Origin: Nocardioides marmorisolisilvae
GTDB lineage: Bacteria > Actinomycetota > Actinomycetes > Propionibacteriales > Nocardioidaceae
Reading direction: 5' to 3'
Assembly: GCF_031656915.1 (NCBI RefSeq)
Contig: NZ_CP134227.1
Location: 2,356,001 to 2,420,000 of the forward strand
DNA length: 64,000 bases
Both the position numbers and the translations under genes were made by a program. Shown piece after piece: positions 40,281-55,180 of this stretch. Every line of letters begins with the position of its first letter. The stretch's first letter is position 1. The notes beneath the pieces were generated by a model. It saw only the letters and a list, made by a program, of their open reading frames with translations. It had not been told where the DNA came from and searched no databases.

Positions 40281-41058
40281 CCGAGCCTCGAAGACGGCAC
40301 GCAGGTGGCTCGCCATTACGCTGACGGTGCTCAGCCTGGGTGTTCCGGTGATCCTGTGGCAGGTCAACGCCATGATCCAGCAGAACCCTGTCCTGGCACC
40401 GGGCCTGGGCCGCATCTGGGACACCATGGTGAGCTCGGCGAACTCCGGAGACCTCTGGTACAACGCTTCCGTCTCCATTCGGTCGGGTCTGGAAGGCCTG
40501 CTGCTGGCGGCAGTGCTGGGGGTCGCGCTGGGCGTGCTGATGGCACAGAGCCGACTGGCCAGTGCGATCGTGTCGCCCTTCCTCAGCGCCACCTACCCGG
40601 TGCCGAAGCTGGCGCTCTATCCGGTCTTCATCCTGATGCTGGGCCTGGGCACCCTGCCCGTAGTGGTCCTCGTTGCCCTGGAATGCATGTACCCGATCGC
40701 TTACAACACGCTCCAGGGCGTGCAGTCCACCAACAAGGAACTGGTGCGCGCGGCGGCCAATGCGGACGCCGGCCGGTGGCGGACATTCACGGCAGTACAG
40801 GTCCCCTCGGCGCTCCCGGCATTCCTGACCGGACTGCGAATCTCCGTGCCGATCATGGTAGTGGTTACCGTGGTGGTGGAGATGCTCGGCCAGAGCCGGG
40901 GCCTGGGCTTCCTGATCCGTGACGCCGGCCGCACCTTCGAGCCGTCCCAGGCCCTCGGCGTCATCCTGCTGCTCGGCGTCCTTGGCTTCGTGCTCGATCA
41001 ACTGCTCCAGGTCGCGACCCGCCAGATTGTCTTCTGGGAGGCACGATCCGATGCCTGA
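40270..41058 (+). CDS. NitT/TauT-type ABC transporter permease, system 2 (second subunit)
   Basis: A 262-residue permease with about six hydrophobic segments and the loop A-N-A-D-A-G-R-W-R-T-F-T-A-V-Q-V-P-S-A-L-P-A-F-L-T-G-L-R. It overlaps the first permease by 11 bases and the hydrolase gene by 8. As in system 1 the channel is a heterodimer. Confidence 0.87.
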   Translation: MAVDRASKTARRWLAITLTVLSLGVPVILWQVNAMIQQNPVLAPGLGRIWDTMVSSANSGDLWYNASVSIRSGLEGLLLAAVLGVALGVLMAQSRLASAIVSPFLSATYPVPKLALYPVFILMLGLGTLPVVVLVALECMYPIAYNTLQGVQSTNKELVRAAANADAGRWRTFTAVQVPSALPAFLTGLRISVPIMVVVTVVVEMLGQSRGLGFLIRDAGRTFEPSQALGVILLLGVLGFVLDQLLQVATRQIVFWEARSDA

Positions 41059-41890
41059 ATCGAACACCCTGCGCACCCGCGATTCCGGCGTTCCGCCATT
41101 GATCGAGGACCCGGCCAGCATGGAGGCACTGGAAGCCTGGATCAAGAAGATCACCGCGGTAGCGAGGGCAGGGAGCTTCGCCCTCACCACGGTGGCCTAC
41201 GGCACCCACCCGGAACAGGTCGCAGACCTCTGGCTGCCTGACGGCCCAGGACCCTTCCCGACGGTCGTGTTGATCCACGGTGGCGGATTCCTGGCCCGCT
41301 TCTCCAAGGCAATCATGGACGCTAATGCGGCCGACCTTGTTGGGCGTGGCTATGCCGTCTGGTGCCCGGAGTACCGCCGGACAGACCTCGACGGCGGCCC
41401 TCGTCGTACGACGTCCGACATCGAGTCCGCCCTCGCCCATCTCTCCCAGATCGAGGAGCCGCTCGACCTTGATCGGGTGGCGGTCGTGGGGCACTCCGCA
41501 GGTGGATACCTCGCGCTGTGGTCCGCCGGGCTAACGGCCGTGCGCCACGTTATTGCTCTGGGGGCGGTGTGCGACCTGCGGATCAACGCCAGGGCTACCG
41601 CGGACTACGCCCGGTTCGTGGGTGGAACCACCGACGAGGTCCCGGATGACTACGAGTATCTCGACCTCTCCCGTCGCCCGGCGAGTCGGTCCACCCAGGT
41701 CATCCTGTGTGGCGAGCTGGACCAACCGCACCGGATCCGGGAGAACCGCGACTACGTCGCCACCGCCATTCATAAGGGAGAGTCGATCACTCTCGAGGAA
41801 CTGCCGGCGACCGGCCACTTTGCCTTCCTGGACCCGCAGTCGCTGGGTTGGACTCGAGCAATGGAAGCGCTGGAGGCGCTGCGGTTGTGA
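41051..41890 (+). CDS. Alpha/beta hydrolase, arylformamidase/BD-FAE-like
   Basis: A 279-residue hydrolase with the oxyanion motif V-L-I-H-G-G-G-F near residue 77, nucleophile elbow G-H-S-A-G-G, and a late histidine in P-A-T-G-H-F-A-F. The H-G-G-G plus G-H-S-A-G-G pairing and size match kynurenine formamidase and related esterases. It starts inside the permease gene, so import and hydrolysis are linked. An N-formyl or other amide/ester of an aromatic amine would fit; this is inference. Confidence 0.8.
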   Translation: MPESNTLRTRDSGVPPLIEDPASMEALEAWIKKITAVARAGSFALTTVAYGTHPEQVADLWLPDGPGPFPTVVLIHGGGFLARFSKAIMDANAADLVGRGYAVWCPEYRRTDLDGGPRRTTSDIESALAHLSQIEEPLDLDRVAVVGHSAGGYLALWSAGLTAVRHVIALGAVCDLRINARATADYARFVGGTTDEVPDDYEYLDLSRRPASRSTQVILCGELDQPHRIRENRDYVATAIHKGESITLEELPATGHFAFLDPQSLGWTRAMEALEALRL

Positions 41891-41897
41891 GTCGAGC

Positions 41898-42641
41898 ATG
41901 AGCGAACTGTCCGGTGGTGCCCCCTGTTGGCTGGAACTCGGTGGCACGCCCAGCGCGGACGTGCTGGCGCACTATGCCGCACATCTCGGCTGGACCTACG
42001 ACATGAACCCCGAGGACTCGGGCTATCGGAGGGCGTTTGCCGACGGCTTCAAGGTGGCCGGTTTCGGCGGTCCCGCCGAGCCTCGGCCCGAGCGCGGGTG
42101 GCGGGTCTACATCGCCGTGGACGACGTCGATGCCGGTCGCGAGCTCGCGGTCCACGCGGGCGCTCCCGCACTCGGCGCGATCATCTCCGTCCCCGACGGC
42201 CGGTTCGCCTGGTTGCATCACCCCTTGGGCGGGCACATGGGCCTGTTCGAGTCACAGACAGATCCGGGCACCGCGGTATGCCCAGGAGTGGGACGCATCA
42301 GTGGTTGGACCCAGGAGTCACCTGACTGCGATGGAGTCCGAAGCTTCCACCAGGCTGTCTTCGGACCCGGGTTCCCGACACTGGTCGACTACCAGACGAG
42401 CACACGTGCCGGCTGGATCGTGCGCGTCACCGCGGAAGTCGATCACGCCCTGGATCTGCAAGACCCGGCAGGCAATCGATTGCGCCTCGAGCCCGCCACT
42501 CCTTCGGACCGCACTGCCGCGGGGAGCGGTCGGCGGGCGTTGAAGTCGTTCACATGTGAGAACCTTGACGAGGTGCACCACCGAATGAGAGCACGAAACC
42601 TTCTTAGACCTCAGGGGAATGATGGCGCAGAAGCAACCTAA
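41898..42641 (+). CDS. VOC-superfamily (glyoxalase/dioxygenase-fold) protein
   Basis: A 247-residue protein beginning M-S-E-L-S-G-G-A-P-C-W-L-E-L-G-G-T-P-S-A-D-V-L-A-H-Y-A-A-H-L-G-W, the usual vicinal-oxygen-chelate opening, with a second half-module from about residue 125. H-P-L-G-G-H-M-G-L-F-E and D-P-A-G-N-R-L-R-L-E are the ends of the two modules. Metal ligands are not clearly conserved in both halves, so catalytic class is open. The 3' end overlaps the MarR gene by 20 bases. Confidence 0.7.
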   Translation: MSELSGGAPCWLELGGTPSADVLAHYAAHLGWTYDMNPEDSGYRRAFADGFKVAGFGGPAEPRPERGWRVYIAVDDVDAGRELAVHAGAPALGAIISVPDGRFAWLHHPLGGHMGLFESQTDPGTAVCPGVGRISGWTQESPDCDGVRSFHQAVFGPGFPTLVDYQTSTRAGWIVRVTAEVDHALDLQDPAGNRLRLEPATPSDRTAAGSGRRALKSFTCENLDEVHHRMRARNLLRPQGNDGAEAT

Positions 42642-43170
42642 GCGTTCCTCGGATCTGGTCGACCTCATCATCGACCAATGGTCCCGCGAGGTCCCCGGTC
42701 TGGACGTCAGCAGCATCGGCGTGCTCGGCCGGCTGCATCGCTGCGACATCCGCTACCAGGGACTCGTGGCCGATGTGCTTGAGGAGTTCAACCTGACCAC
42801 GGCGGCCTTCGACGTGCTCGCGTCCCTTCGCCGGAGCCCAGAGCACAAGCGCACTGCGGGCCAGCTCGCGCAGGTCGGCCTGATCAGCAGCGGCGGCCTC
42901 ACCCAGCGGATCGACAGGCTGGAGAGGTCCGGGCTGGTCAGCCGCACCCGGGATCCCAACGATCGCCGGGTCGTCTACATCGAGCTCACCGCTGCCGGCC
43001 ACAACCTGATCGACACGGTGCTGGAGCGGCATTTCGCGGAACAGAACAGCTTCCTGTCCGGACTCACCCGCACCGAGCAGCGGCAGCTGGCCGAGCTGCT
43101 CTCGCGGCTCGAGGTCTCGCTCGAAGTCGCCGAGCGAATGCGCGAGGAGCCCGACCAGGACGCCGGCTGA
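42622..43170 (+). CDS. MarR-family transcriptional regulator
   Basis: A 182-residue winged-helix regulator very like the one at 25766: G-L-D-V-S-S-I-G-V-L-G-R, then T-T-A-A-F-D-V-L-A-S-L-R-R-S, S-G-G-L-T-Q-R-I-D-R-L-E-R-S-G-L-V, and the wing N-D-R-R-V-V-Y-I-E-L-T. ATG 42622 has AGGGG 4 bases upstream; ATG 42619 is too close. It is the last gene of the importer/hydrolase run and lies next to the catabolic cluster, which it may control. Confidence 0.88.
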   Translation: MAQKQPKRSSDLVDLIIDQWSREVPGLDVSSIGVLGRLHRCDIRYQGLVADVLEEFNLTTAAFDVLASLRRSPEHKRTAGQLAQVGLISSGGLTQRIDRLERSGLVSRTRDPNDRRVVYIELTAAGHNLIDTVLERHFAEQNSFLSGLTRTEQRQLAELLSRLEVSLEVAERMREEPDQDAG

Positions 43171-43208
43171 CCAAAAGCCTGGCCGGAGTGCCGGCGTAGT
43201 TCCCAGCG

Positions 43209-43255
43209 CTGGATCAGGGCTAGGTCAGGGCTGGGTCAGTGCTGGATCAAGGCTG
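43209..43255. repeat. Four tandem 11-bp repeats at a convergent gene end
   Basis: Units CTGGATCAGGG, CTAGGTCAGGG, CTGGGTCAGTG and CTGGATCAAGG follow one another from 43209 to 43252, with a partial fifth. Each unit gives a TGA on the minus strand, and with an 11-bp period these fall in all three frames. The aldehyde dehydrogenase stop (43247-43249) is one of them. Confidence 0.75.
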
Positions 43256-44782
43256 GCCCCACGGCAGCGGGGTGCCGGTCAGGTCCCAGTAGATGCTCTT
43301 CTGGCGCATGTACGACTTGATCCCGTCCCGACCCTTCTCGGTGCCTAGTCCACTGGCCTTGTGGCCGCTGAACGGCGTCGAGATGCTGAACTGCTTGTAG
43401 GTGTTGATCCACACCGTGCCGGAGTCGATCGCTCGGGCGACCCGCCAGGCCCGGCGATAGTCGCTGGTCCAGATTCCGCAGGCGAGCCCGAACTCGTTGT
43501 CGTTCGCCTGGGCGATCAGGTCGGACTCGTCCCTGAACGGGAGTACGACAGCGACCGGCCCGAAGACCTCCTCGCGGCAGATCGTGTCCTGGTTGGTGAC
43601 ACCGGCCAGGATCGTCGGCAGGTAGTAGGCGCCTGCAGCCAGCGCTGGATCCTCCGGAATGCATCCTCCGGCCAGCACCGTCGCACCTTCCGCGACCGCC
43701 TTGTCGACCATGCCGGCCACCTGGTCCCGGTGGGAGTGGTGCACCAAGGGCGCGACGTCGGTGCCCGGGTCGGTGCCGGGTCCGACTCGCAGTTGCCGGG
43801 TCCGTTCCACGAGCCGACCGACGAAGTCGTCGTAGACAGACTCGTGGATGAACAAGCGGGAACCAGCGATGCAGCTCTGGCCACTGGAGGAGAAGATGCC
43901 GAACAGGATCCCGGCGAGGGCTTGCTCCAGATCGGCATCGGCGAAGACGATCGTCGGTGACTTACCCCCGAGCTCGAGGGTCACCGGCATGATCTTGTCC
44001 GCAGCGACCCGCCCGATCTTGCGCCCCGTGGTGGTTCCACCGGTGAAGGACACCTTGCCGACCGACGGGTGGGCGACCAGCGCGTTGCCGATCACCGAGC
44101 CCGAGCCGGGCAACACCGAGAGCAGTCCTGCGGGCAGACCCGCCTCCTCGCAGATCCGGCCGACCAGCAGGGACACCAATGGCGCCCACACCGGCGGCTT
44201 GAGCACCACCGCGTTGCCTGCAGCCAGCGCCGGCGCGACCTTCTGGGCATCACTGGCGATGGGCGAGTTCCAGGGCGTAATCGCTGCGACCACGCCGTAC
44301 GGCTCGTGCGCCGTCATGGTCAGGCTGCCGGCGCGCTGGGGCGTGACTGCCTCCTCCATCGTTTCCAGTGCGGCTGCCATGTACCGGAAGGTCCCCGCGG
44401 CGCTCATCGCCAGTGCCCTGGTTTCGGACCGGCACTTTCCGGTGTCAGCGGTCTGAACATGCGAGATGAGGTCGGCACGCTCCTCGATGAGATCACCTAT
44501 CCGGTGCAGAACCAGGGCGCGCTGGTGCGGGAGCAGGTCTGCCCAGACACCCGCCCGCGAAGCCGCGAGTCCGGCCGTCACCGCGTCCTCGACATCCTCC
44601 AGCGATGCCCCGTGGAAGGCGTGCACTACCCCGCCCGTGGCCGGGTCACGTGACTCGATCAGCTCGCCGCCGCCCTGCCGCCACTCCCCTCCGACCAGGA
44701 TGAGGTCCTCCAGCCCGTCCACCCCGTCCAGGGCGGCATGGCGAGAAGCGCTCAGCTGCGTGTCCGGCTGCGTGGTGTTCAT
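43247..44782 (-). CDS. NAD(P)-dependent aldehyde dehydrogenase
   Basis: A 511-residue class I-type aldehyde dehydrogenase: V-A-A-I-T-P-W-N-S-P and F-T-G-G-T-T-T-G in the nucleotide-binding domain, E-L-G-G-K-S-P with the general base, and catalytic cysteine in G-Q-S-C-I-A-G-S. ATG 44782 has AAGGAG 8 bases upstream. It is divergent from the cupin and the rest of the plus-strand cluster, sharing a control region with a palindrome. It would oxidise a semialdehyde or the aldehyde made by the ThDP enzyme. Confidence 0.9.
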   Translation of the reverse strand: MNTTQPDTQLSASRHAALDGVDGLEDLILVGGEWRQGGGELIESRDPATGGVVHAFHGASLEDVEDAVTAGLAASRAGVWADLLPHQRALVLHRIGDLIEERADLISHVQTADTGKCRSETRALAMSAAGTFRYMAAALETMEEAVTPQRAGSLTMTAHEPYGVVAAITPWNSPIASDAQKVAPALAAGNAVVLKPPVWAPLVSLLVGRICEEAGLPAGLLSVLPGSGSVIGNALVAHPSVGKVSFTGGTTTGRKIGRVAADKIMPVTLELGGKSPTIVFADADLEQALAGILFGIFSSSGQSCIAGSRLFIHESVYDDFVGRLVERTRQLRVGPGTDPGTDVAPLVHHSHRDQVAGMVDKAVAEGATVLAGGCIPEDPALAAGAYYLPTILAGVTNQDTICREEVFGPVAVVLPFRDESDLIAQANDNEFGLACGIWTSDYRRAWRVARAIDSGTVWINTYKQFSISTPFSGHKASGLGTEKGRDGIKSYMRQKSIYWDLTGTPLPWGQP

Positions 44783-44922
44783 CTGCGGTCTCCTTAGAGC
44801 CAAGAGGATTGAAACCTGGGCAGAGACGATCCGCGTGCGTGGAAGCATCGACTGCTGAAGGAGCGTCCGCCAAACTTCTTGCTTTTGGGTGTTGACGGAT
44901 CGCCCTCGACGGCTTCATGCTA

Positions 44923-44935: not shown

Positions 44936-44965
44936 GTCTGAGACAATACCCCAAGGAGACTTCCT

Positions 44966-45493
44966 ATGACCACGACAGAGAACACCGTGGAGACCAACGA
45001 CCTCGATGCGCTCATCGACTCCTGCCTGGCCACCAAGGAGAGCCGATACGAGGACTGGGACACGTTGGCCTTCCAGGCCGAGAAGGGTGGCGAGAAGTTT
45101 CGCCGGGCCCAGATCCGCTACATCGGGTCCGGTGCGACCGGCAACCACGAGGGTGACGGTCGGACCCTGCCCTCCGGCGGGTTCACGTTCTCTAACATGC
45201 TGTTGCCGGCCGGCTGTGTCGGTCCCGAGCACACTCACCACGACGTCGAGGAGGCGTTCTTCGTCCTCGAGGGCCAGGTCGAGTTCAGCGTGCACGATGT
45301 CGAGGACGGCACCAAGACCGCCTCCCGTGTTCTCGGCTACCGGGATCTGATCCGGGTCCCGGCCGGCGTACCCCGCAGCCTGAAGACGGTCAGTGACGAG
45401 GACGCACTCATCTGCGTGATCATCGGAACCCAGAAGCCGCAGCTCCCGACGTACCCCAAGACGTCGGAGATGTACGGCGTCACGCGCGACTGA
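44966..45493 (+). CDS. Cupin-domain protein
   Basis: A 175-residue single-cupin protein. Motif 1 reads G-P-E-H-T-H-H-D-V-E-E-A-F-F-V-L-E-G, motif 2 R-D-L-I-R-V-P-A-G-V-P-R, so metal-binding histidines and glutamate are present. Possible roles are a dioxygenase, isomerase or decarboxylation helper. AAGGAG precedes ATG 44966. First gene of the plus-strand catabolic run. Confidence 0.8.
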   Translation: MTTTENTVETNDLDALIDSCLATKESRYEDWDTLAFQAEKGGEKFRRAQIRYIGSGATGNHEGDGRTLPSGGFTFSNMLLPAGCVGPEHTHHDVEEAFFVLEGQVEFSVHDVEDGTKTASRVLGYRDLIRVPAGVPRSLKTVSDEDALICVIIGTQKPQLPTYPKTSEMYGVTRD

Positions 45494-45532: not shown

Positions 45533-46495
45533 ATGCTCACCCCAACAGGAGCACGCGAGCTCCGCGTCAACGGGTTGAACTGGGAGGCCGAAGGCGTCCT
45601 GAGTGTCCGGCTCACCGACCCGTCCGGGGAGGCCCTGCCCACGTGGGAGCCAGGCGCCCACCTGGCGCTGCACCTGCCCAACGGCATCGTTCGTGAGTTC
45701 TCCCTGTGCTCCGATCCGGAGGACCGCACCGGTTGGACCGTCGCGGTCCTCCGGGAGCCGAGCTCACGCGGTGGCAGTGCCTACGTCCATGTCGAGCTGC
45801 GTCCCGGCGACCTCATCACCGTCGACGGGCCACGCAACAACTTCCAGCTCGAGCCGGCGGCGAGGTACGTGCTGGTCGCCGGGGGCATCGGGATCACTCC
45901 GATCCTCGCGATGGCTCGCGACCTGGAGCGGCGCGGCGCAGACTGGAGCATGCTCTATGCGGGCCGGTCCGCCGCCACGATGGCCTTCGTCGACGAGCTG
46001 GAGAAGCTCGGCACCGCTCACCTGCGCATCCATGCGGATGACGAAGCGGGCGGCCCCCCGAACCTCTCCGAAGTACTCGAAGGGGTTGACGCCGACACGC
46101 TCGTCTACTGCTGCGGCCCCGAGCCGCTGCTCAAGGGGGTGGAGGAGGGGTTGGCCGATGCCGGATGCCTGCGCCTGGAGCGGTTCAAGGCCCCCGACCC
46201 GGTTGCTCCGCCCGAAGGTGGCGACCAGCCCTTCGAGATCGTCTGCGCGGGGTCGGGAAGACGGGTCGCCGTCCCGGTCGGAACCACCGCTCTCGACGCC
46301 CTGGACCAGGCGGGCTTCGACATGCCCAGCTCGTGCACCGAGGGCATCTGCGGCACCTGTGAGACCAAGGTGCTCAGCGGCATCGTCGACCATCGCGACT
46401 TCCTGCTGAGCGACAGCGAGAAGGAAGCCCAGAACACCATGTTCATCTGCGTATCGCGGGCGCTGACCCCCGAGCTCACCCTCGACATCTCCTGA
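45533..46495 (+). CDS. VanB/phthalate dioxygenase reductase-type ferredoxin reductase
   Basis: A 320-residue reductase with an N-terminal flavin domain (R-E-F-S-L-C-S-D-P), NADH domain (V-A-G-G-I-G-I-T-P-I-L-A-M near residue 117 and Y-C-C-G-P-E-P-L-L), and C-terminal plant-type [2Fe-2S] domain with cysteines near 267, 272, 275 and 305 (S-S-C-T-E-G-I-C-G-T-C). This architecture serves two-component Rieske oxygenases, so it should supply electrons to the Rieske enzyme at 53279. Confidence 0.9.
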   Translation: MLTPTGARELRVNGLNWEAEGVLSVRLTDPSGEALPTWEPGAHLALHLPNGIVREFSLCSDPEDRTGWTVAVLREPSSRGGSAYVHVELRPGDLITVDGPRNNFQLEPAARYVLVAGGIGITPILAMARDLERRGADWSMLYAGRSAATMAFVDELEKLGTAHLRIHADDEAGGPPNLSEVLEGVDADTLVYCCGPEPLLKGVEEGLADAGCLRLERFKAPDPVAPPEGGDQPFEIVCAGSGRRVAVPVGTTALDALDQAGFDMPSSCTEGICGTCETKVLSGIVDHRDFLLSDSEKEAQNTMFICVSRALTPELTLDIS

Positions 46496-46505: not shown

Positions 46506-47459
46506 ATGTCCATCACCGGGATCGTCAACCCCGGGCCGCCCGTGGCCCGCCTCCACTCCCTGCGCTCGGTCTCCCTGCTCGTGCCGGACCCGAAGTCGAT
46601 GATCGACTTCTACACCGGCACCTGGGGCCTCAGCGCCACCGATCAGGGTGACGACGTCGCCTGGCTACGCGGGTCCGGCCAGGAGCACCACATCCTGCAC
46701 CTCGCCCAGCACGACCAGAACGCGCTCGGCAAGATCGTCTTCGCTCTCGACACCCGTCGTGCCGTCGACGCAGCCGCCCGCGGACTGGAGAGGCTCGGCG
46801 TGGCCGTCGTACGCGAACCGGGTCCGCTCGACGATGCGGCCGGTGGCTACGGGCTGCAGTTCGTCGACCCGGAAGGGCGTCTGGTCGAGCTGAGCGTCGA
46901 GCGCTTCGCCGTCTCCGCCCGCGACGCCAACGGCCGGGACGCGATCCCGCGCAAGATCGCCCACGTGGTGCTCAACACCGTCGACATCGACGCGATTAGC
47001 ACCTTCTACTGCGACGTCCTGGGCATGCGGATCTCGGACTGGTCCGAGCACCAGATGGCCTTCCTGCGCTGCAACAGCGACCACCACGTGATCGCCTTCA
47101 ACCAGGCGCCCTGGACCTCGCTGAACCACGTCGCCTACGAGATGCCGTCGGTCGATCACTTTATGCGCGGCATCGGCAACCTGCGCCGTGCGGGCATCAG
47201 CCCCGAGTGGGGCCCGGGCCGGCACGGACCCGGCGACAACACCTTCTCCTACTTCAGCGACCCGGCCGGACTGGTCTGCGAGTACACCTCCGAGGTCGCC
47301 CAGATCGAGGAGGACAGCTGGCTGTGCCGGGTCTGGCCGCGCACCCCGGAGCTCTCAGACCAGTGGGGTACGGCGGGACCGCCCACCGAGAAGGTCCGCA
47401 AGCACATGGCGGGCGTGCCGGACGCTGGTCACCTGGCCCGACTCACCAAGACCGCCTGA
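46506..47459 (+). CDS. Extradiol ring-cleavage dioxygenase, type I (BphC/VOC family)
   Basis: A 317-residue two-module VOC protein. The active C-terminal module keeps the Fe(II)/Mn triad: H153 (K-I-A-H-V-V-L-N-T), H208 (L-N-H-V-A-Y-E-M) and E259 (V-C-E-Y-T). The start ATG 46506 is 8 bp after the reductase stop. It would cleave a catechol-type ring next to the hydroxyls; the hydrolase at 48292 is a candidate for the next step. Substrate unknown. Confidence 0.85.
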   Translation: MSITGIVNPGPPVARLHSLRSVSLLVPDPKSMIDFYTGTWGLSATDQGDDVAWLRGSGQEHHILHLAQHDQNALGKIVFALDTRRAVDAAARGLERLGVAVVREPGPLDDAAGGYGLQFVDPEGRLVELSVERFAVSARDANGRDAIPRKIAHVVLNTVDIDAISTFYCDVLGMRISDWSEHQMAFLRCNSDHHVIAFNQAPWTSLNHVAYEMPSVDHFMRGIGNLRRAGISPEWGPGRHGPGDNTFSYFSDPAGLVCEYTSEVAQIEEDSWLCRVWPRTPELSDQWGTAGPPTEKVRKHMAGVPDAGHLARLTKTA

Positions 47460-47461: not shown

Positions 47462-48295
47462 ATGACGCTCACCCACCTGCGACACCCGGCGACCGCATCA
47501 GCGCAAGGGGGCCCGCTGCGCGTCGCCGTGCTCGGCCACGGCTCGATCGGCAGGCCCGTCGCCGACGCACTGAAGTCCGGCAACGTCGACGGAGCCGCCC
47601 TGGCTGCCGTGGTCGACTCGCACGGCACCCAGGATGCGGCCGGTGAGTCGATCACCTTTGCCCAGGCCACAGAGCTGGCTGACCTCTTCGTCGAGGCGGC
47701 CGGCCAGAACGTGCTCGCCGAGTTCGGACCGCGGGTTGTGGCCGCAGGGGTGGACCTGCTGGTGCTCTCGATCGGGGCGCTCGCCGACGAGCGGTTGCAC
47801 GAGCAGCTCTTCGGGGGACCAGGCAGGCTCTACCTCTCCACCGGCGCGATCGGTGGGCTGGACCTAATCCGGGCGGTCGCCGACGGGGGCACCCTGGACA
47901 AGATCTGCATCGAGACCTACAAGCAACCACGCACACTGGTCCAGGACTGGATGGACGACCAGCAGCGGGCCGAGCTGCTCGAGGTCACCGGCCGCACCGA
48001 AGTTCTCCGCGGCACCCCGCAACGGATCGCCACGGCGTTCCCGAAGTCCGCCAACGTCGCCATGGCCGTGGCGATGGCCGCCGGCGACCCGGCCAAGGTC
48101 GAGGCAGTGGTGTTCGCCGACCCGGAATGCAGCCTGACCAGCAACGAGATCACCGTCCAGAGCAGAACCGGCAGCTACCTGTTCCAGATCCGCAACCTGC
48201 CGTCTCGGGACAACCCAGCCAGCTCCGGAGTGGTGCCGTTCGCCGTTCTGCGCGCAATCCAGGACCTGGCCGGTCGGCGGGAGACGCTGATATGA
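47462..48295 (+). CDS. Aspartate dehydrogenase-like NAD(P) oxidoreductase
   Basis: A 277-residue protein with the Rossmann motif V-A-V-L-G-H-G-S-I-G near residue 21 and the aspartate-dehydrogenase domain signatures S-T-G-A-I-G-G-L-D and F-P-K-S-A-N-V-A-M-A-V-A-M-A-A. True family members reductively aminate oxaloacetate or oxidise aspartate to iminoaspartate. In aromatic clusters the paralogues probably act on another amino or imino acid. It starts 2 bp after the dioxygenase stop and overlaps the hydrolase gene (ATGA). Confidence 0.82.
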   Translation: MTLTHLRHPATASAQGGPLRVAVLGHGSIGRPVADALKSGNVDGAALAAVVDSHGTQDAAGESITFAQATELADLFVEAAGQNVLAEFGPRVVAAGVDLLVLSIGALADERLHEQLFGGPGRLYLSTGAIGGLDLIRAVADGGTLDKICIETYKQPRTLVQDWMDDQQRAELLEVTGRTEVLRGTPQRIATAFPKSANVAMAVAMAAGDPAKVEAVVFADPECSLTSNEITVQSRTGSYLFQIRNLPSRDNPASSGVVPFAVLRAIQDLAGRRETLI

Positions 48296-49164
48296 GCCGC
48301 GCCGAGGTCGGCGACATTGCCCTGGAGCTCTTCGAACCCGACGAGACCGGCGAGCCTGCCCGCACCGTCCCCGTGGTACTCCTGCACGGCATCGGCGGCA
48401 GTGCTGACACCTTCGCCGGAGTCGGACCCCTGCTCGCCGCGGCCGGATGGCGCACCGTGGCCTGGGACGCTCCGGGATACGGCGCCTCCGCCGACCCCGG
48501 TCCGGAGGTCGCTGGGCCACTCACTGGGCCTGACTCCCCCGGCGCCTACGTCGAACTGGTCGCCGGTCTGCTCGAGCGCCTCGACGCCCCCCACGCCCAC
48601 CTTGTCGGAGTGTCCTGGGGCGGCGTGATCTGCACCCAGGTCGCGGTCCGCCGACCTGAGGTGGTCGCCAGCCTCACCCTGATCGACTCCACTCGTGGGT
48701 CGGCGACGACTCCGGAGAAGGCGGCCGCCATGCGTGGCCGGGTGGCCGAGTTGCAAGCCGTCGGCGCCGAGCAGTTCGCGGCAGGCCGTGCGCCACGACT
48801 GCTCGCCGACGGAGCGGACCTCACGGTCGCTCGGGAGGTGGCACGACAGATGTCGTCCGTGCGGCTGGCCGGGTACGCCGGCGCCGCCGAGATGATGGCC
48901 CAGAGCGACACCGGGCCTGTGCTCTCGAGCATCACAGCGCCGACGCTGGTGCTGGTCGGTGACCAGGACCTGGTCACCGGCGTCGAGGAGTCTCGACTGC
49001 TGGCGGATGCGATCCGGCAGGCGCAGTTCGGTCTGGTCCGCAACGCCGGCCACGCCGCCGTACAGGAACAGCCGGTCGAGGTCGCCGATGCGCTGCTGAG
49101 GTTCCTGGCCGGGCTGCCCGAGGAAGCGCCCAGCGACCGCACCCGTCAGGAGAGCATCCGATGA
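48292..49164 (+). CDS. Alpha/beta hydrolase, ring-cleavage-product hydrolase-like
   Basis: A 290-residue hydrolase with oxyanion motif L-L-H-G-I-G-G, nucleophile elbow G-V-S-W-G-G, acid in V-G-D-Q-D and histidine in N-A-G-H-A-A. This arrangement matches the BphD/MhpC group that splits C-C bonds of meta-cleavage products. It overlaps its neighbours by 4 bases at each end. Confidence 0.82.
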   Translation: MSRAEVGDIALELFEPDETGEPARTVPVVLLHGIGGSADTFAGVGPLLAAAGWRTVAWDAPGYGASADPGPEVAGPLTGPDSPGAYVELVAGLLERLDAPHAHLVGVSWGGVICTQVAVRRPEVVASLTLIDSTRGSATTPEKAAAMRGRVAELQAVGAEQFAAGRAPRLLADGADLTVAREVARQMSSVRLAGYAGAAEMMAQSDTGPVLSSITAPTLVLVGDQDLVTGVEESRLLADAIRQAQFGLVRNAGHAAVQEQPVEVADALLRFLAGLPEEAPSDRTRQESIR

Positions 49165-49904
49165 GTGGCCGACCGTTGTACGTCGTCACCGGCTCCGGAC
49201 GGGGCCTCGGCCTGGCCATCGCCGAGCGACTCGGACGCGACGGCGCCCGGATCGTGGTGGCCGAGCTGAGGCCCGAGGTTGCCGAGAAGGGCGTCGCCCA
49301 ACTGCTGGAGCACGGCATCGAGGCGCACCGGGTGGACACCGACGTCTCCGAGGCAGCCTCAGTGGCCGCACTGGCCGAAGCCGTCGAGGCCCTCGGCGGT
49401 GCGCAGGGCCTGGTCAACAACGCTGCCATCGCCAACGGCGTCGGCGGGCTGCCCTTCCACCAGATCGAGGAGACGCAGTTCAGCCGGATCCTCGACGTCA
49501 ACGTGCGCGGGACCTGGCTGGTCTCCAGGGCGCTGTACCCCCAACTGACCCGCCACCAGGGGGCGATCGTCAACCTCGCCTCTGATGCCGCCCTCTACGG
49601 CTCACCACGGCTGGCACACTACGTCGCCTCCAAGGGCGCGATCATCTCGATGACGCGTGGCATGGCCCGCGACGCCGGACCGGACGGCGTGCGCGTCAAC
49701 GCGGTGGCCCCCGGCCTGACCCGGGTGGAGGCGACGGAGACCGTTCCGGCGGAGCGCTACGAGCTCTATCGCAACAACCGCGCCCTGGATCGCGACCAGA
49801 CCCCGGAGGACGTGACCGGCGTGGTCGCATTCCTGCTCAGCGACGACTCCCGCTACGTCACCGGCCAGACACTGGTCGTCGACGGCGGCTTTGTGATGCC
49901 CTGA
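49161..49904 (+). CDS. Short-chain dehydrogenase/reductase (canonical)
   Basis: A 247-residue SDR: cofactor motif T-G-S-G-R-G-L-G, N-N-A, catalytic serine in N-L-A-S-D-A, and Y-V-A-S-K with Tyr and Lys intact. It could oxidise a cis-dihydrodiol or alcohol in the pathway. ATG overlaps the hydrolase stop. Confidence 0.88.
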   Translation: MSGRPLYVVTGSGRGLGLAIAERLGRDGARIVVAELRPEVAEKGVAQLLEHGIEAHRVDTDVSEAASVAALAEAVEALGGAQGLVNNAAIANGVGGLPFHQIEETQFSRILDVNVRGTWLVSRALYPQLTRHQGAIVNLASDAALYGSPRLAHYVASKGAIISMTRGMARDAGPDGVRVNAVAPGLTRVEATETVPAERYELYRNNRALDRDQTPEDVTGVVAFLLSDDSRYVTGQTLVVDGGFVMP

Positions 49905-49974: not shown

Positions 49975-50754
49975 ATGGACCTCGGACTGCGTGACCGCAC
50001 GGTGCTGGTCACCGGCGCCAGTTCCGGCGTGGGCCTGGCCACCGCCCAGATGCTGCTGGCCGAGGGTGCCAACGTGGCGGCGTGCGCCCGAGACCTCGAC
50101 CGCTTGACCGCAGTGCTGACGGATGCGTCGACCGAGCGCCTTCATCTGGTCTCCTGCGACGTGACGAACCAGTCCGCGGTCGAGGCATTCGTCGAGTCCG
50201 CAGTTGACCGCTTCGGCGGCGCTGACGGGGTGGTGTGCAACGCCGGGAGGTCGCTGATGGCACCCATCGAGAGCACCACCGATGCGCAGATCCGTGAGGA
50301 GTTCGACCTGAAGATCTTCGGCGTCCTGAACCTCGTGCGGGCTGCTCAGACGCACCTCGCCACGTCGCAGGTCGGCTCCGTGGTCACGGTGAACGCGATC
50401 CTGGCCCGCCAACCGGAGCCCCGGCTGCCGGTCACGTCTGCCGCTCGTGCTGCCCTGCTGAACCTGACCAGAACCCTGGCCACCTCGCTCGGCTCCGAAG
50501 GCATCCGGATCAACTCGGTGCTCCTCGGGCTGGTCGACACCGGCCAGTGGTCCCGACGATATGCCGAGGCCGATACCTCCCTCACCTATGCCGAGTGGGC
50601 CAGCGAGCTGGCCAGCGACCGAGGTGTCGTCCTCGGCCGCCTCGGCACCGCAGCCGAGGTGGCGTTCCCCATCGTCTCGTTGCTGTCCCCCTTGTCCGGC
50701 TACACCACCGGAGCCTGCATCGACGTCGGCGGCGGCGTCGGCCGCTACGTCTGA
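49975..50754 (+). CDS. Short-chain dehydrogenase/reductase-fold protein with altered catalytic motif
   Basis: A 259-residue SDR-fold protein. The cofactor motif T-G-A-S-S-G-V-G and C-N-A-G are present. Where Y-x-x-x-K is expected the sequence reads V-T-S-A-A-R, so both the catalytic tyrosine and lysine are replaced, and the preceding serine strand reads V-N-A-I-L. It may use different chemistry or serve a binding role. GAAAGG precedes ATG 49975. Confidence 0.8.
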   Translation: MDLGLRDRTVLVTGASSGVGLATAQMLLAEGANVAACARDLDRLTAVLTDASTERLHLVSCDVTNQSAVEAFVESAVDRFGGADGVVCNAGRSLMAPIESTTDAQIREEFDLKIFGVLNLVRAAQTHLATSQVGSVVTVNAILARQPEPRLPVTSAARAALLNLTRTLATSLGSEGIRINSVLLGLVDTGQWSRRYAEADTSLTYAEWASELASDRGVVLGRLGTAAEVAFPIVSLLSPLSGYTTGACIDVGGGVGRYV

Positions 50755-50788
50755 CCTGACCACCATCCCGGAGATCCCAGGAGATCCC

Positions 50789-52471
50789 ATGACCGATCAA
50801 CCCACCCACGTCACCGGCGGCGACGTCCTCGTCGAGGTGATGCGCGCGCACGGCGTCGACACCGCGTTCGGGGTCGTCAGCATCCACAACCTCCCCCTGG
50901 TGGAGGCGATCGACCGGGAGCTGCGCTTCGTCCCGGTCCGTCACGAGGCGGCGGCGGTGAACGCAGCGGACGGTTATGCGAGAGCCACCGGGAGGTTCGG
51001 GGTGGCCATCACCAGCACCGGCACCGGAGCCGGCAACGCGGCCGGGTCGATGCTGGAGGCGCTCTCTGCTGGGAGTCGGGTGCTGCACGTCACCGGCCAG
51101 ATCGACAGCGATTTCCTCGGGTCAGGTCGAGGCGTCATCCACGAGGTCCCACGCCAGCTGCAGATGCTCCAGGCCGTGTCCAGGTTCGCCCGCACCGTCG
51201 AGCGCGCCGACCAGGCTCGTGAGGTCCTCGAGGCCGCCATTGCAGATCTGAGCACCCTGCCCACCGCTCCCGCCAGCGTGGAGTGGCCAATCGACCTGCA
51301 GTACCTCGGCGACCCCGCCGACCAGACCGTGAACGGGCCCGCCACCGTCAGCAGACCCCCGACCGTTGATGCAGCCGCTCTGGCATCCGCGATCGACGTG
51401 CTCGACAACGCCAGGCGTCCCCTGATCTGGGCCGGCGGTGGTGCCCGCGACATCGGCGCCCCTCTCCAGGAGCTCGCCGAGCTGCTCGGCGCCGGACTGC
51501 TCACCAGCAACGCCGGCCGGGGCTCCATTCCAGAGGATCACCCTCTGGTGGTCGGCAATTTCGCCTCCAACCCGGGATTGGACGCGCTGATCGCCGACGC
51601 CGATGCCCTGCTGAGCATCGGCAGCCACTTCCGTTCCAACGAGACCCGGCACTATCACCTGCCACTGCCCTCCCCTCACGTCGCCATCGACGTCGACGAG
51701 GCGGCCGTCGGGCGGGTGTACCCCGCTGAGGTCGGCCTCGTCGGTGACGCCGCTGCGATCGTGCCGGCCCTCCTCGACGCGCTCCGCTCCAGGTCCACCG
51801 GACCGGAAGCGGGCTGGACGGAGCGGGTCACCTCGGTGCGCGAAGACGTCCGGACCAAGCTGGAAGCGGACATCGGCGCCTACGGGAGCATCTGTACGGC
51901 GATCAGCGAGGTGCTGCCCCAGGGGTCCATGATCGCCCGTGACGTGACCATCCCGTCGAGCTCCTGGGGCAACCGCCTGTTGCCGATCCTCGACCCGCGC
52001 AGCAACATCTTCCCGCTCGGCGGTGGCATCGGTCAGGGCCTCGCCATGGGCATCGGTGCCGCTGTCGGTCGCACGGACGTGCCGACCCTGGTCATGGTCG
52101 GCGATGGCGGCCTCGCCGTACACCTCGGCGAGCTGTGCACGCTGGCGGGTGAGGAGCCGTCGTGCATCCTGGTGATCTTCAATGACGGCGGCTACGGCGT
52201 GCTGCGCAACCTGCAGGAGGCCAACACCGGCAGACGCGCGGGAGTTGACCTGTTCACGCCGGACTTCGGCGACCTGGCGCATTCACTCGCGCTCCCCTAT
52301 GCCCTGGCGAGGAACGGCGACGAGTTCCGCAGCGCCCTGGTCAAGGCGGTCGAACTGGGTACCCCGATGGTCATCGAGGTCGACGTCACCGCGCTGTCGC
52401 CGGCGCCGAAGCCGTTCGTTCCACCGGTGCACGTGCCCACACCCGGGGCGCGTCAGAGCAGGGAGTCCTGA
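50789..52471 (+). CDS. Thiamine diphosphate-dependent enzyme (acetolactate synthase/benzoylformate decarboxylase family)
   Basis: A 560-residue ThDP enzyme. The catalytic glutamate lies in P-V-R-H-E-A-A-A-V-N-A-A-D-G-Y-A near residue 53; the ThDP-binding motif opens G-D-G-G-L-A near 437 and ends N-D-G-G. The family decarboxylates or ligates 2-oxo acids; here it could remove CO2 from an aryl-oxo acid, with the aldehyde going to the divergent aldehyde dehydrogenase. GGAG precedes ATG 50789; its stop overlaps the next gene. Confidence 0.87.
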   Translation: MTDQPTHVTGGDVLVEVMRAHGVDTAFGVVSIHNLPLVEAIDRELRFVPVRHEAAAVNAADGYARATGRFGVAITSTGTGAGNAAGSMLEALSAGSRVLHVTGQIDSDFLGSGRGVIHEVPRQLQMLQAVSRFARTVERADQAREVLEAAIADLSTLPTAPASVEWPIDLQYLGDPADQTVNGPATVSRPPTVDAAALASAIDVLDNARRPLIWAGGGARDIGAPLQELAELLGAGLLTSNAGRGSIPEDHPLVVGNFASNPGLDALIADADALLSIGSHFRSNETRHYHLPLPSPHVAIDVDEAAVGRVYPAEVGLVGDAAAIVPALLDALRSRSTGPEAGWTERVTSVREDVRTKLEADIGAYGSICTAISEVLPQGSMIARDVTIPSSSWGNRLLPILDPRSNIFPLGGGIGQGLAMGIGAAVGRTDVPTLVMVGDGGLAVHLGELCTLAGEEPSCILVIFNDGGYGVLRNLQEANTGRRAGVDLFTPDFGDLAHSLALPYALARNGDEFRSALVKAVELGTPMVIEVDVTALSPAPKPFVPPVHVPTPGARQSRES

Positions 52472-53037
52472 TGAGCGAGGGGCCCCACAGTGCCGTCCTG
52501 GGTCTGCACAGCAGCCTGGACTGGCCCGAGCTGACGGGGTCGGATGACGGAAGCCGGTCGGTCGCGTTCACGCCCGACCAGGACCTCCCCGCCCGGGTCG
52601 CGGTCGCAGCCGAGGCAATTGAAGATTTCGGTGCACCGATGCACATCGTGGCGAGTGGACCCGAAGGTGCCGTCGCTGTCCGGTTGGCGGTCAGCCGCCC
52701 GGAGCTCGTGCGGAGCCTGGTGCTCACCGATTGTTCGCCCCGCACGGATCTGGGCGACGTCACCGACGACCTGGTGGACGTCAGGGTGCCGTCGCTGGTG
52801 GTCGCGGCGAGTCCCGACGGGGAGTCCGGTCTCGAGGACTCCCAGACCCTGGCTGGCCAGATTCCCAATGGGGTGTTCGTGGTGATGGACCACACCGAGC
52901 TGCCCGCCCATGCATCGCGGCCGGGTTCATTCCAGGAGTGGTCAGCCTCGTTCATCTCGATCGTCGAGGGTTTGCGCGCCCTGGACCCCGAAGCCCGCCA
53001 CATCATCACCCCGGCCGACACGGCCAGTACCCCTTGA
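52471..53037 (+). CDS. Alpha/beta-hydrolase-like protein lacking the nucleophile
   Basis: A 188-residue protein that follows the alpha/beta hydrolase pattern from the nucleophile elbow onward (V-A-S-G-P-E-G-A-V-A-V-R-L-A, then R-S-L-V-L-T-D, and S-L-V-V-A-A-S-P-D-G), but the elbow serine is replaced by glycine. It is short for the family. Either a non-catalytic partner of the ThDP enzyme it overlaps by one base, or a degenerate paralogue. Confidence 0.55.
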   Translation: MSEGPHSAVLGLHSSLDWPELTGSDDGSRSVAFTPDQDLPARVAVAAEAIEDFGAPMHIVASGPEGAVAVRLAVSRPELVRSLVLTDCSPRTDLGDVTDDLVDVRVPSLVVAASPDGESGLEDSQTLAGQIPNGVFVVMDHTELPAHASRPGSFQEWSASFISIVEGLRALDPEARHIITPADTASTP

Positions 53038-53054
53038 GAACCGGAGGAGAAACC

Positions 53055-53276
53055 ATGCAAGAGCCGCTGTATCTGCAGCCCGTTCAGACCCGAACCGAGC
53101 CGGCCTCGCCGTACGAGCTCAAGCTCGCCGGCCTGATCGAGCGAGTCTTCGCCGAGGGCCACACCGAGCTCCCTGAACTGGTGAAGGGGCTCAACGATCA
53201 CCGGTCGACCTCACCGACCGGCGAGCCGTGGACCGAGGAGTCCTTCTGTGCCGAGATGACGAGACTGGGAGCCTGA
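53055..53276 (+). CDS. Small protein preceding the Rieske oxygenase (recombinase-like HTH type)
   Basis: A 73-residue protein: P-Y-E-L-K-L-A-G-L-I-E-R-V-F-A-E-G, L-P-E-L-V-K-G-L-N-D-H-R, and P-W-T-E-E-S-F-C-A-E-M-T-R-L-G. This is the pattern of the small recombinase-like helix-turn-helix proteins that I recall being encoded next to Rieske oxygenases. AGGAG precedes ATG 53055, and the stop lies 2 bp before the oxygenase start. An assembly or electron-transfer accessory role is possible. Confidence 0.6.
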   Translation: MQEPLYLQPVQTRTEPASPYELKLAGLIERVFAEGHTELPELVKGLNDHRSTSPTGEPWTEESFCAEMTRLGA

Positions 53277-53278
53277 CG

Positions 53279-54346
53279 ATGACTGTGACCGAGACCCCCC
53301 GGGTGAACTCGCCGGGCCGCAACACCGGAGCCCTGGATGTCGCGGAGCTCATGGGGACCGGCCTGCGGGACCGCTGGTACCCCGTGCTGCCCTCACACCT
53401 GGTCAAGCCGGGTGCGATGAAGAAGGTCACCCGCCTCGGCAAGGACTGGCTGCTCTTCCGCAGCGCCCAGGGCAAGCTGTCAATGCTGGCCGATCGGTGC
53501 CCACACCGCAATGCGCCGCTCTCCATCGGCCAGCACCTCGGCGACCGGGTGAAGTGCCAGTACCACGGGGTAGAGGTCGACGGCACCGGCACCGTGGTGA
53601 AGGTGCCCGGCATGCCCGGGTGTGCCTTGGAGGGCAAGCAGGCAACCGTCAGCCTAGACATGGTCGAGGCTGCCGGCGTTGCGTTCGCCTGGTTCCCCGC
53701 ACTGCCTGACAACAAGGCTCCGGAGTTCACTCTGCCGGACCGGCTCGACTCCTCGGAGCACTCCTACTTCGTGAACTTCGTGGAGTGGAAGGCGCCATGG
53801 CGGTTCTACCTCGACAACGTGCTGGACCCCATGCATGGGGCCTTCCTGCACGCCGACTCTCACTCGATGTTCAGCGGTGACACCACTGCACGGTTCCGGA
53901 TCCGCGAGACCGACCGGGGCTTCTTCTTCGAGAAGACCGACCAGCGCGGGCAGAACTTCGACTGGGTCGAGTACGTCCACCACAACGGTCTGGACTACGT
54001 CGACCTGGAGATCCCCTACGGCCCGGAGGCGGGCCCCGGCGGTCCCTTCGGCATCGTCGGCATCCCCACGCCGGTCACCGACAACGTCACGGCTGTCTTC
54101 CACTGGCGGACCCGCAAGGTGCAGGGCTGGGAGCGCGACGTCTGGCGCTTCCTCTACAAGACCACCCTCGAGGCGAAGCACTGGGCCGTGCTGGAGCAGG
54201 ACCGCGGCATGCTTGAGAACTTCGCCGTCGACGCCGACCAGGGCGAGCACCTCTACCAGCACGACCTCGGGGTCGCCAGAATGCGACGGATGTACCAGGC
54301 CGCTGCCAAGGAACAGGCCGAGAAGATCTCCCAAGGCGGCAAGTGA
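53279..54346 (+). CDS. Rieske non-haem iron aromatic ring-hydroxylating oxygenase
   Basis: A 355-residue oxygenase. The Rieske cluster ligands are C74-x-H76 and C93-x2-H96 (C-P-H-R and C-Q-Y-H-G). The mononuclear iron site is N180-x2-D183-x2-H186-x4-H191 (D-N-V-L-D-P-M-H-G-A-F-L-H). No small (beta) subunit gene is present, so it belongs with single-subunit-type oxygenases such as the vanillate or phthalate types, matching the VanB/PDR-type reductase at 45533. It probably starts ring attack or demethylation. Confidence 0.9.
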   Translation: MTVTETPRVNSPGRNTGALDVAELMGTGLRDRWYPVLPSHLVKPGAMKKVTRLGKDWLLFRSAQGKLSMLADRCPHRNAPLSIGQHLGDRVKCQYHGVEVDGTGTVVKVPGMPGCALEGKQATVSLDMVEAAGVAFAWFPALPDNKAPEFTLPDRLDSSEHSYFVNFVEWKAPWRFYLDNVLDPMHGAFLHADSHSMFSGDTTARFRIRETDRGFFFEKTDQRGQNFDWVEYVHHNGLDYVDLEIPYGPEAGPGGPFGIVGIPTPVTDNVTAVFHWRTRKVQGWERDVWRFLYKTTLEAKHWAVLEQDRGMLENFAVDADQGEHLYQHDLGVARMRRMYQAAAKEQAEKISQGGK

Positions 54347-54675
54347 CCTCGCCCGACGAGGTGATGCTGACCGTCTTCCTGCGCCACGACCAGTCCCAGC
54401 ACCTCGAAAAGATCCAGGACCAGCTTGACGAGCGAGACTGGTGGACCGGCTTTCCGCCGGAGGGGGTCGAGATCGTCTCCTGGGTAGTGGCCATGGGCGT
54501 GGGGCAGATCGTCACATTGCGGTTGCCCGCCTCGCGAATCGCTGCGGTGAACGTCGAGCTGGAACGTCGTGCTTGGGGCGCCTTCCGCACCGAGTTCTAC
54601 CCAACGTACGACTTCCTGCCGGTGCGTGAGCGGCTGACAGCTGAGTCGGCCGCACGTAGAGGGAATACGCCGTGA
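54343..54675 (+). CDS. Conserved small protein of aromatic-catabolic clusters
   Basis: A 110-residue protein from GTG 54343, overlapping the oxygenase stop (GTGA). It opens V-M-L-T-V-F-L-R-H-D-Q-S and contains P-P-E-G-V-E-I-V-S-W and W-G-A-F-R-T-E-F-Y-P-T-Y-D. The alternating pattern suggests a small dimeric alpha-beta fold. I do not know a function; I have the impression of seeing similar proteins beside aromatic oxygenases, but cannot verify it here. Confidence 0.6.
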   Translation: MTSPDEVMLTVFLRHDQSQHLEKIQDQLDERDWWTGFPPEGVEIVSWVVAMGVGQIVTLRLPASRIAAVNVELERRAWGAFRTEFYPTYDFLPVRERLTAESAARRGNTP

Positions 54676-55067
54676 CGGCCGTGCACGCGCCGGGAGTCGA
54701 CGAGCCACCACGCTCCACGATGTTCAGCAACGCCCGGGTCGTGGGCGACCAGATCTTCGTCTCCGGCCTCCATGCGGGTGACGGCGCCGGCGGCATCCTG
54801 GGCGACGGATCGACCTACGACCAGGCCCGAATAGCGCTGACCAAGATCCAGCGACTCATCGAGGCTGCGGGCGGCGTGATGGACGACCTGGTCGTGTTGC
54901 GTCTCTACATGACCGACATCGACGAGAAGGCCGAGGTCGGTCGGGCGAGGGCAGAGTTCTTCACTGGCGACTTCCCTTGCTCCACCCTGGTCGAGGTGAG
55001 GGCGCTGGTGGATCCCCGCCTCACCGTCGAGATCGAGGCCCAGGGCGTCCTGGGGAGCTCCCGTTGA
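54672..55067 (+). CDS. RidA/YjgF-family protein, catalytic arginine replaced
   Basis: A 131-residue RidA-fold protein: V-V-G-D-Q-I-F-V-S-G-L-H-A-G-D, L-T-K-I-Q-R-L-I-E-A-A-G-G, V-L-R-L-Y-M-T-D, and S-T-L-V-E-V-R-A-L-V-D-P-R-L-T-V-E-I-E-A. Where RidA deaminases have P-A-R-S this one has F-P-C-S, so the carboxylate-binding arginine is missing. Some family members act in aminomuconate-type pathways; here a different imine or ring-opened product is likely. It overlaps both neighbours. Confidence 0.8.
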   Translation: MTAVHAPGVDEPPRSTMFSNARVVGDQIFVSGLHAGDGAGGILGDGSTYDQARIALTKIQRLIEAAGGVMDDLVVLRLYMTDIDEKAEVGRARAEFFTGDFPCSTLVEVRALVDPRLTVEIEAQGVLGSSR

Positions 55068-55180
55068 TCGAGCGCGCCGTGACCGTGGGAGCGGGGATCG
55101 CCGGCTGCTCGGCAGCGATCACGCTGGCCACGCGTGGTGTCGAGGTGACTCAGGTGGAGAAGCAGGCAGAGTGGCGGCCA
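55064..55180 (+). pseudogene. N-terminal stump of an FAD-dependent monooxygenase
   Basis: From TTG 55064, overlapping the RidA stop, the frame reads V-T-V-G-A-G-I-A-G-C-S-A-A-I-T-L-A-T-R-G-V-E-V and V-E-K-Q-A-E-W-R-P, the FAD-binding start of a class A monooxygenase. Family resemblance ends abruptly near 55180; the frame then runs on into the IS. Only about 39 of roughly 400 residues remain. The break marks the right edge of the catabolic cargo. Confidence 0.7.

Follow-up and report, generated by a model that had tools for sequence, protein, structure and literature searches.

The genome of Nocardioides marmorisolisilvae carries, on contig NZ_CP134227.1, a catabolic gene cluster that is a real, conserved module and for which no assigned function was found. 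We analyzed a stretch of 64,000 nt of this contig (positions 2,356,001 to 2,420,000, here called the window), in which the cluster centers on a block at 41–55 kb (Table 1). Judged from the genes present, its substrate is very likely some N-heteroaromatic acid, and kynurenate or xanthurenate is the probable identity of that acid. The locus would then, with similar probability, serve the catabolism of quinoline-2-carboxylates: kynurenate is the likeliest main substrate, and xanthurenate, perhaps also quinaldate, would enter from the side. Both kynurenate and xanthurenate are bioactive products of tryptophan, kynurenic acid being a tryptophan waste product. If the assignment is true, genes can be given to enzymes known only from the biochemistry of the 1960s, genome sequences would reveal a sink in microbial tryptophan metabolism, and a nutrient is predicted for several opportunistic bacteria. 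The locus also makes it possible to test two small accessory proteins encoded next to Rieske oxygenases.

Composition and conservation of the gene set

The block begins with an alpha/beta hydrolase (ABH1), a divergent gene of the vicinal oxygen chelate (VOC) type (VOC1), a MarR regulator and, on the opposite strand, an aldehyde dehydrogenase (ALDH). The genes that follow encode a cupin, a reductase of the phthalate dioxygenase reductase (PDR) type, an extradiol dioxygenase, an aspartate-dehydrogenase-like protein (AspDH), a second alpha/beta hydrolase (ABH2), two short-chain dehydrogenases/reductases (SDR1 and SDR2), a thiamine diphosphate (ThDP) enzyme, the PcaD-like ABH3, the small protein HTH_62, a Rieske oxygenase, a second small protein (small2) and the Rid-family protein RidA1. 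The ALDH gene splits the cupin-to-RidA operon off from MarR, ABH1 and VOC1. An earlier note, made from the letters of this DNA alone, had described one joined block of mostly overlapping genes, and this was borne out: all genes named there are present with open frames, and five junctions overlap, with spacings of −4 at AspDH/ABH2, ABH2/SDR1, Rieske/small2 and small2/RidA and of −1 at ThDP/ABH3. Its gene list was correct as far as it went, but ALDH lies on the opposite strand, and the VOC-like gene and ABH3 were missing from it. The Rieske oxygenase has C74/H76/C93/H96, D183 and H186/H191/D308, the extradiol enzyme has H153/H208/E259 and is thus of the active type, and the ThDP enzyme has RHEAA and GDG...NDGG; we take these positions to be the catalytic ones.

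Relatives were collected in a scan of GTDB genomes with the Rieske protein, from which we named the best 80 loci of at least 587 stretches encoding a relative; all 80 are titled actinobacteria. Enough flank is present in 69 of them (full loci), the other 11 being too short; L001–L006 and L012 were excluded from some comparisons as short or duplicate, and L014 was included in the 69-locus counts. HTH_62 was found in all 69 full loci, PDR in 68, SDR1 in 67, the cupin, extradiol dioxygenase, ABH2 and SDR2 in 66 each, and ALDH and the ThDP enzyme in 65 each (the absence of ThDP from L052 and L092 in this count is a score effect, the matches there being in pieces). The co-occurrence of the set is not due to chance. 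Neither ABH1 nor VOC1 was matched by tblastn (E 1e-5) in the fetched comparison loci, and both were therefore kept out of the core.

When plasmid records were searched by tblastn with the Rieske protein, 497 of them matched; 35 of these cover at least 80% of the query, and many of the others are different Rieske proteins. Annotated loci with largely the same set are present in Acinetobacter, Klebsiella, Novosphingobium, Caballeronia (the locus of strain M1242 ends at the record end), Pseudosulfitobacter, Nitratireductor and Paracoccus, and unannotated loci of Burkholderia and Cupriavidus match the set gene by gene. In several annotated loci PDR is replaced by genes for a ferredoxin, an FAD reductase or both, as with the ferredoxin and FAD-dependent oxidoreductase of Klebsiella and Acinetobacter. 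The genes A1S_0956–0958 of A. baumannii (aspartate dehydrogenase, betaine-aldehyde dehydrogenase and acetolactate synthase), which the accessible part of PMC5757984 lists among the genes changed on mucin, may be the cluster genes of this species; the match is not decisive. Overall the locus is sporadic: a Rieske match at E 1e-30 was found in 3 of 396 genomes phylum-wide and in 4 of 58 relatives, own genome counted.

Kynurenate as the probable substrate

Kynurenate is degraded via its 7,8-dihydrodiol and 7,8-dihydroxykynurenate, and 8,8a extradiol cleavage gives a 4,6-dihydroxypicolinate that bears an unsaturated 2-oxoacid as its 5-substituent; this side chain is then reduced and decarboxylated, and the aldehyde is oxidized. 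This breakdown in pseudomonads was reportedly worked out chemically in the 1960s, by Horibata in 1961 and by Taniuchi and Hayaishi in 1963. The route needs a Rieske oxygenase, a classical SDR, an extradiol enzyme, a C=C reductase, a decarboxylase and an ALDH; all of these are core genes (ThDP and ALDH, the classes called for by the side chain, at the 65 of 69 given above), which favors kynurenate.

From the observed gene content, motifs, module split and conservation we infer every substrate and step of the following route. The Rieske oxygenase and the PDR reductase, together with HTH_62, would convert kynurenate to the 7,8-dihydrodiol, from which SDR1 would form 7,8-dihydroxykynurenate; xanthurenate, an already hydroxylated analogue, may be converted to the same catechol by an FAD monooxygenase (FMO) encoded upstream of the block. 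The extradiol enzyme would cleave between C8 and C8a, SDR2 would reduce the side-chain double bond, the ThDP enzyme would decarboxylate the side-chain 2-oxoacid and ALDH would oxidize the aldehyde. ABH2 with the cupin is then predicted to hydrolyze the 4,6-dihydroxypicolinate ring to glutarate and iminosuccinate, the AspDH substrate, a step suggested by our own atom bookkeeping. Iminosuccinate would be turned into aspartate by AspDH, or RidA would convert the imine to oxaloacetate and ammonia.

In the openly licensed literature we found neither genes for kynurenate breakdown nor a described pathway that matches the whole set; an assignment in a subscription journal is possible. The earlier idea of an undescribed pathway for a nitrogen-containing aromatic acid thus stands for the gene set, but if the substrate is kynurenate, the chemistry is old. 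According to the accessible part of PMC11354673, glutamate, alanine and organic acids are what certain pseudomonads make from kynurenate, and work on 7,8-dihydroxykynurenate is cited in the accessible part of PMC5610271.

The gene set occurs split into modules. In the congeneric genome G402, which is a metagenome-assembled genome, one contig (C7) carries PDR-SDR1-ABH3-HTH_62-Rieske, and a separate contig carries FMO-ALDH-ThDP-SDR2-cupin-ABH2-AspDH-extradiol dioxygenase together with MarR and a second FMO. Two plasmids of Vibrio nigripulchritudo bear cupin-ABH-extradiol dioxygenase-SDR2-ThDP-AspDH-ALDH and an unannotated FMO, which is frame-broken and readable in two or three frames. Neither Rieske nor SDR1 lies beside the lower set in the stretches read of G402 and of the Vibrio plasmids. 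SDR1 travels with the Rieske gene, as the two are together on C7 and both missing from the lower-only loci, and SDR1 is close to universal in the full loci (67 of 69). A lower set with FMO and without Rieske and SDR1 suggests that Rieske plus SDR1 on the one hand and FMO on the other are two entries leading to the same catechol. The FMO of the window is 60–69% identical to the FMOs of the best-matching cluster loci, and its best solved relative is 6-hydroxynicotinate 3-monooxygenase (5eow, 4.7e-81; NicC-like). With the best four candidates per genome scored, an FMO of at least 50% identity was found phylum-wide in the own genome alone among 396 (4 others at 40–44%); among the 58 relatives it was found in the own genome and G402 only (one other at 38%).

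The two SDRs differ in their active-site motif. All 88 SDR1 sequences keep YxxxK, whereas in all 88 SDR2 sequences the Tyr is missing and Arg stands for Lys, a TSAARA-type sequence replacing YxxxK; the best solved relative of SDR2, 3lf1, has the same type of replacement.

A clue to nitrogen comes from AspDH and the Rid proteins. Of the full loci, 49 have AspDH and 34 have a Rid gene; 67 have one or both, and 16 have both. The two loci with neither are L014 and L049, and the genome of L014 holds AspDH in a separate lower module. Genera with AspDH inside the cluster include Streptomyces, Klebsiella and Acinetobacter. We searched whole genomes for AspDH for 19 of the 29 AspDH-negative loci among the 80 and for three AspDH-positive controls: it was found in 3/3 controls and in 3/19 AspDH-negative genomes, and the remaining 16 had no match at E 1e-10. 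Fifteen of these 16 carry a second Rid gene, RidA2, in the cluster. As AspDH is absent mostly where Rid genes are present, a final imine is suggested, and AspDH and Rid may be two ways of removing it. This pattern, the NicC-like FMO and a molybdenum (Mo) hydroxylase resembling quinoline oxidoreductase (see below) lend indirect support to the earlier claim that the substrate carries nitrogen. A search for AspDH in phage records gave two weak matches. On plasmids of Phaeobacter and Pukyongiella (L112, L113) an AspDH gene lies kilobases from kynureninase or 3-hydroxyanthranilate 3,4-dioxygenase and adjoins a dihydrodipicolinate-synthase-like gene, perhaps another tryptophan-linked AspDH setting.

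Several observations weigh against kynurenate. The alanine reported in the accessible part of PMC11354673 is not explained by the end products of the scheme. At the annotated cluster loci that were read there is no gene annotated for tryptophan or kynurenine, and the tryptophan dioxygenase match of the own genome is ∼0.86 Mb away from the window's left edge. Just 12 of the 80 named loci have an FMO of at least 50% identity within 10-kb flanks (matches below 35%, in L022, L034 and L049, were excluded from the count), and Mo-hydroxylases near other clusters are just 22–32% identical to that of the window, so that the link to this enzyme is weak. The extradiol enzyme of the window shares only 26–27% identity with those of Klebsiella, Acinetobacter and Novosphingobium, though 43–46% with alphaproteobacterial ones, and in the Rhodococcus loci L042, L044 and L048 the examined flank lacks part or most of the lower gene set. 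The AspDH/Rid exchange is a pattern, not a statistic, since a sign test on the tree (at least 5 changes for AspDH, 3 for Rid) was without power. Furthermore, the AspDH of the window has Asn228 where 57 of 57 compared relatives have a His that is presumably catalytic. With two RidA genes alongside, this AspDH may be dispensable here.

On a wider proposal, whose chances we put just short of even, the cluster would be the missing gene set of bacterial kynurenate and xanthurenate catabolism, common to soil actinobacteria and opportunists such as Klebsiella and Acinetobacter, with parallel Rieske and FMO entries and with AspDH and Rid proteins as interchangeable means of imine disposal; an SDR without the Tyr/Lys dyad would act on a C=C bond, and the Rieske oxygenase would have an unrecognized partner in HTH_62.

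Accessory proteins, upstream genes and flanks

In each of the 80 actinobacterial loci HTH_62 lies immediately upstream of the Rieske match or overlaps with it; in L100–L102 the two are separated by ABC genes. Its Pfam label is that of a recombinase-like helix-turn-helix and three helices are predicted, yet it may act as an oxygenase partner instead of binding DNA. The protein small2 is 65–87% identical in 27 loci and goes with RidA1: all 27 loci with RidA1 have small2, and 27 of 29 loci with small2 have RidA1. Its model shows a ferredoxin-like fold, with a weak resemblance to methylmuconolactone methylisomerase among others. Folded small2 and HTH_62 matched nothing in the PDB at E 0.001 or better.

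The block of the earlier note is probably just part of the functional unit, which would also include FMO, RidA2, two MarRs, the Mo-hydroxylase and two ABC transporters at 22.3–41.1 kb; FMO, RidA2 and Mo-hydroxylase sit 10–19 kb upstream of that block. RidA2 is 56–70% identical to genes in 34 cluster loci, and the metallo-beta-lactamase-fold hydrolase adjoins FMO in L042 and L044 too. The best solved relative of the Mo-hydroxylase large subunit is quinoline 2-oxidoreductase (1t3q, 2.5e-154), and a Mo-hydroxylase is also located beside the cluster in Caballeronia pNK84 and in one Streptomyces; Cupriavidus gave a weaker match.

A second Mo-hydroxylase set (FAD, FeS and large subunit; window 1–396 / L124 1795–12397) ends at the window's left edge and has, by eye, a CoxG-like and an amidase-like gene. 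At the other end of the catabolic region, the FAD-protein fragment at 55064 is unmatched by the FMO family of the cluster, and nothing in the loci matched it convincingly (the best hit beyond the window covers 29 residues at 41%, E 0.099). Conjugation-type genes flank the region on the minus strand, with a TraG/type IV secretion coupling protein on the left (16737–18134) and an M23 peptidase and weak TraG-/TrbL-like matches below Pfam cut-offs on the right (57954–63574). An integrative conjugative element may carry the catabolic region as cargo.

Table 1. Features of the catabolic region in window coordinates
Feature	Position	Strand	Remark
RidA2, second Rid-family protein	22294..22656	+	PF01042 4.1e-24
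MarR regulator	22774..23268	-
Metallo-beta-lactamase-fold hydrolase	23308..24495	-	52–73% in L017, L042, L044
FMO, proposed second entry enzyme	24498..25640	-	intact
MarR regulator, divergent from FMO	25766..26347	+
CoxG-like accessory protein of Mo-hydroxylase	26369..26974	-	PF06240 2.8e-15
Mo-hydroxylase large subunit	26998..29361	-
Mo-hydroxylase [2Fe-2S] subunit	29409..29879	-	scanned range, gene ends inexact
Mo-hydroxylase FAD subunit	29886..30666	-	ends approximate; 5′ end missing beside transposase gene
Transposase gene	30696–31955		next to 5′-truncated Mo-hydroxylase FAD subunit
ABC transporter: ATPase, two permeases, two binding proteins	32227..36676	-	34701–35663 scanned as NMT1; rest by eye
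Second ABC transporter set, NMT1/SsuA-like binding protein	37441..41058	+	3/4 genes scanned
ABH1, BD-FAE/formamidase-like alpha/beta hydrolase	41051..41890	+	not core
VOC1, divergent VOC-like gene	41898–42641		not listed in earlier note
MarR regulator	42619..43170	+	related MarR in 57/80 loci
ALDH	43247..44848	-	PF00171 5e-163
Cupin	44966..45493	+
VanB/PDR-type reductase	45533..46495	+	presumed partner of Rieske enzyme
Two-domain VOC extradiol dioxygenase	46506..47459	+	3b59 3e-64; H153/H208/E259
AspDH	47462..48295	+	PF01958
ABH2, PcaD/MCP-hydrolase-like	48292..49164	+
SDR1, proposed cis-dihydrodiol dehydrogenase	49161..49904	+	YxxxK in 88/88
SDR2, proposed side-chain C=C reductase	49975..50754	+	Tyr/Lys dyad missing; 3lf1 5e-58
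ThDP enzyme (PRK07064 family), proposed 2-oxoacid decarboxylase	50789..52471	+	NF005470 658.7 bits, cut-off 495
ABH3, short PcaD-like protein, accessory	52471..53037	+	in 42/80 loci; not listed in earlier note
HTH_62, 73-aa protein	53055..53276	+	PF20552 4e-30
Single-subunit Rieske oxygenase	53279..54346	+	PF00355 + PF19112 (VanA_C)
small2, 110-aa protein, ferredoxin-like fold	54343..54675	+	model pLDDT 86.6
RidA1	54672..55067	+	PF01042
N-terminal FAD-protein fragment, block end	55064–55186		beside ISL3 transposase
ISL3 transposase	55401–56699

Alternative substrates and comparison with known systems

The same logic of dihydroxylation, extradiol cleavage, decarboxylation, side-chain oxidation and imine clean-up could act on another bicyclic or N-heteroaromatic acid (another quinoline, an isoquinoline, an indole or a pyridine-fused compound), which we consider rather unlikely. 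It would suit FMO and Mo-hydroxylase, whose closest relatives of known structure act on hydroxynicotinate and quinoline, and AspDH and Rid indicate only that an imine may remain. However, AspDH as the imine handler suggests iminosuccinate, and that product would call for a nitrogen ring with a 2-carboxylate and a 4-oxygen, as in kynurenate. A nitrogen-free aromatic acid, with AspDH and RidA as auxiliaries for detoxification or for NAD or aspartate supply, is improbable. The Rieske enzyme, extradiol enzyme and hydrolase together form the classic set for meta cleavage of aromatics, and the PDR and VOC families are generic, but AspDH lies inside the cluster in genera such as Streptomyces, Klebsiella and Acinetobacter, RidA2 is in the cluster in all but one of the 16 genomes that have no AspDH match, and the scanned block genes include no hydratase/aldolase pair. 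The earlier comparison with a classic upper/meta pathway holds for Rieske, extradiol enzyme and hydrolase but not beyond, since no 2-hydroxypentadienoate hydratase or aldolase is among the scanned block genes; a biphenyl-type meta pathway was rejected on this ground, for the block only. The biphenyl pathway shares Rieske, SDR, extradiol enzyme and alpha/beta hydrolase with the present locus, which differs in its single-subunit Rieske enzyme and in having ThDP, ALDH, AspDH and RidA in place of hydratase and aldolase.

The likeness to iad-type indole-3-acetate loci, drawn in the earlier note, did not hold up, and we regard a locus of this type as extremely improbable. PF00848 (Ring_hydroxyl_A), which we assume the IadDE alpha subunit to carry, has zero matches in the own genome, and the Pfam scan found no CoA ligase or thiolase among the block genes. 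Together with the single-subunit VanA_C Rieske enzyme and the lack of a counterpart of IadF or IadG in the block, this speaks against identity with iad. Kynurenine and anthranilate, also offered as alternatives, are likewise disfavored: the anthranilate dioxygenase pathway was rejected because its PF00848-type alpha subunit has no match in the genome, and the tryptophan dioxygenase match is the distant one mentioned above. In the accessible parts of the reports on Variovorax (PMC9613470, PMC11630574, PMC10374108, PMC12633357), the iad system shares MarR, Rieske oxygenase and reductase, a hydrolase of the formamidase type (annotated as kynurenine formamidase) and a transporter with an ABC binding protein, which have counterparts here. 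It differs in its CoA chemistry and two-subunit Rieske enzyme: the accessible part of PMC12633357 assigns the large and small subunits to IadDE, the acyl-CoA synthetase to IadF and the thiolase to IadG; extradiol, ThDP and AspDH steps were not seen in the parts available.

The lum cluster for lumichrome, also from Nocardioides (PMC12746152, accessible part), shares an N-heterocycle as substrate, a xanthine-oxidase-type hydroxylase, Rieske and extradiol enzymes, a ThDP enzyme and a cupin. In contrast to the present locus, it has a two-subunit LumC/D Rieske enzyme, a P450 and a split ThDP enzyme, and AspDH was not seen in the part available; identity with lum was rejected after this comparison on account of LumC/D and the P450. 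The classical pseudomonad kynurenate pathway was compared at the level of its chemistry: each enzyme class of this route, in its order of action, can be assigned to a core gene.

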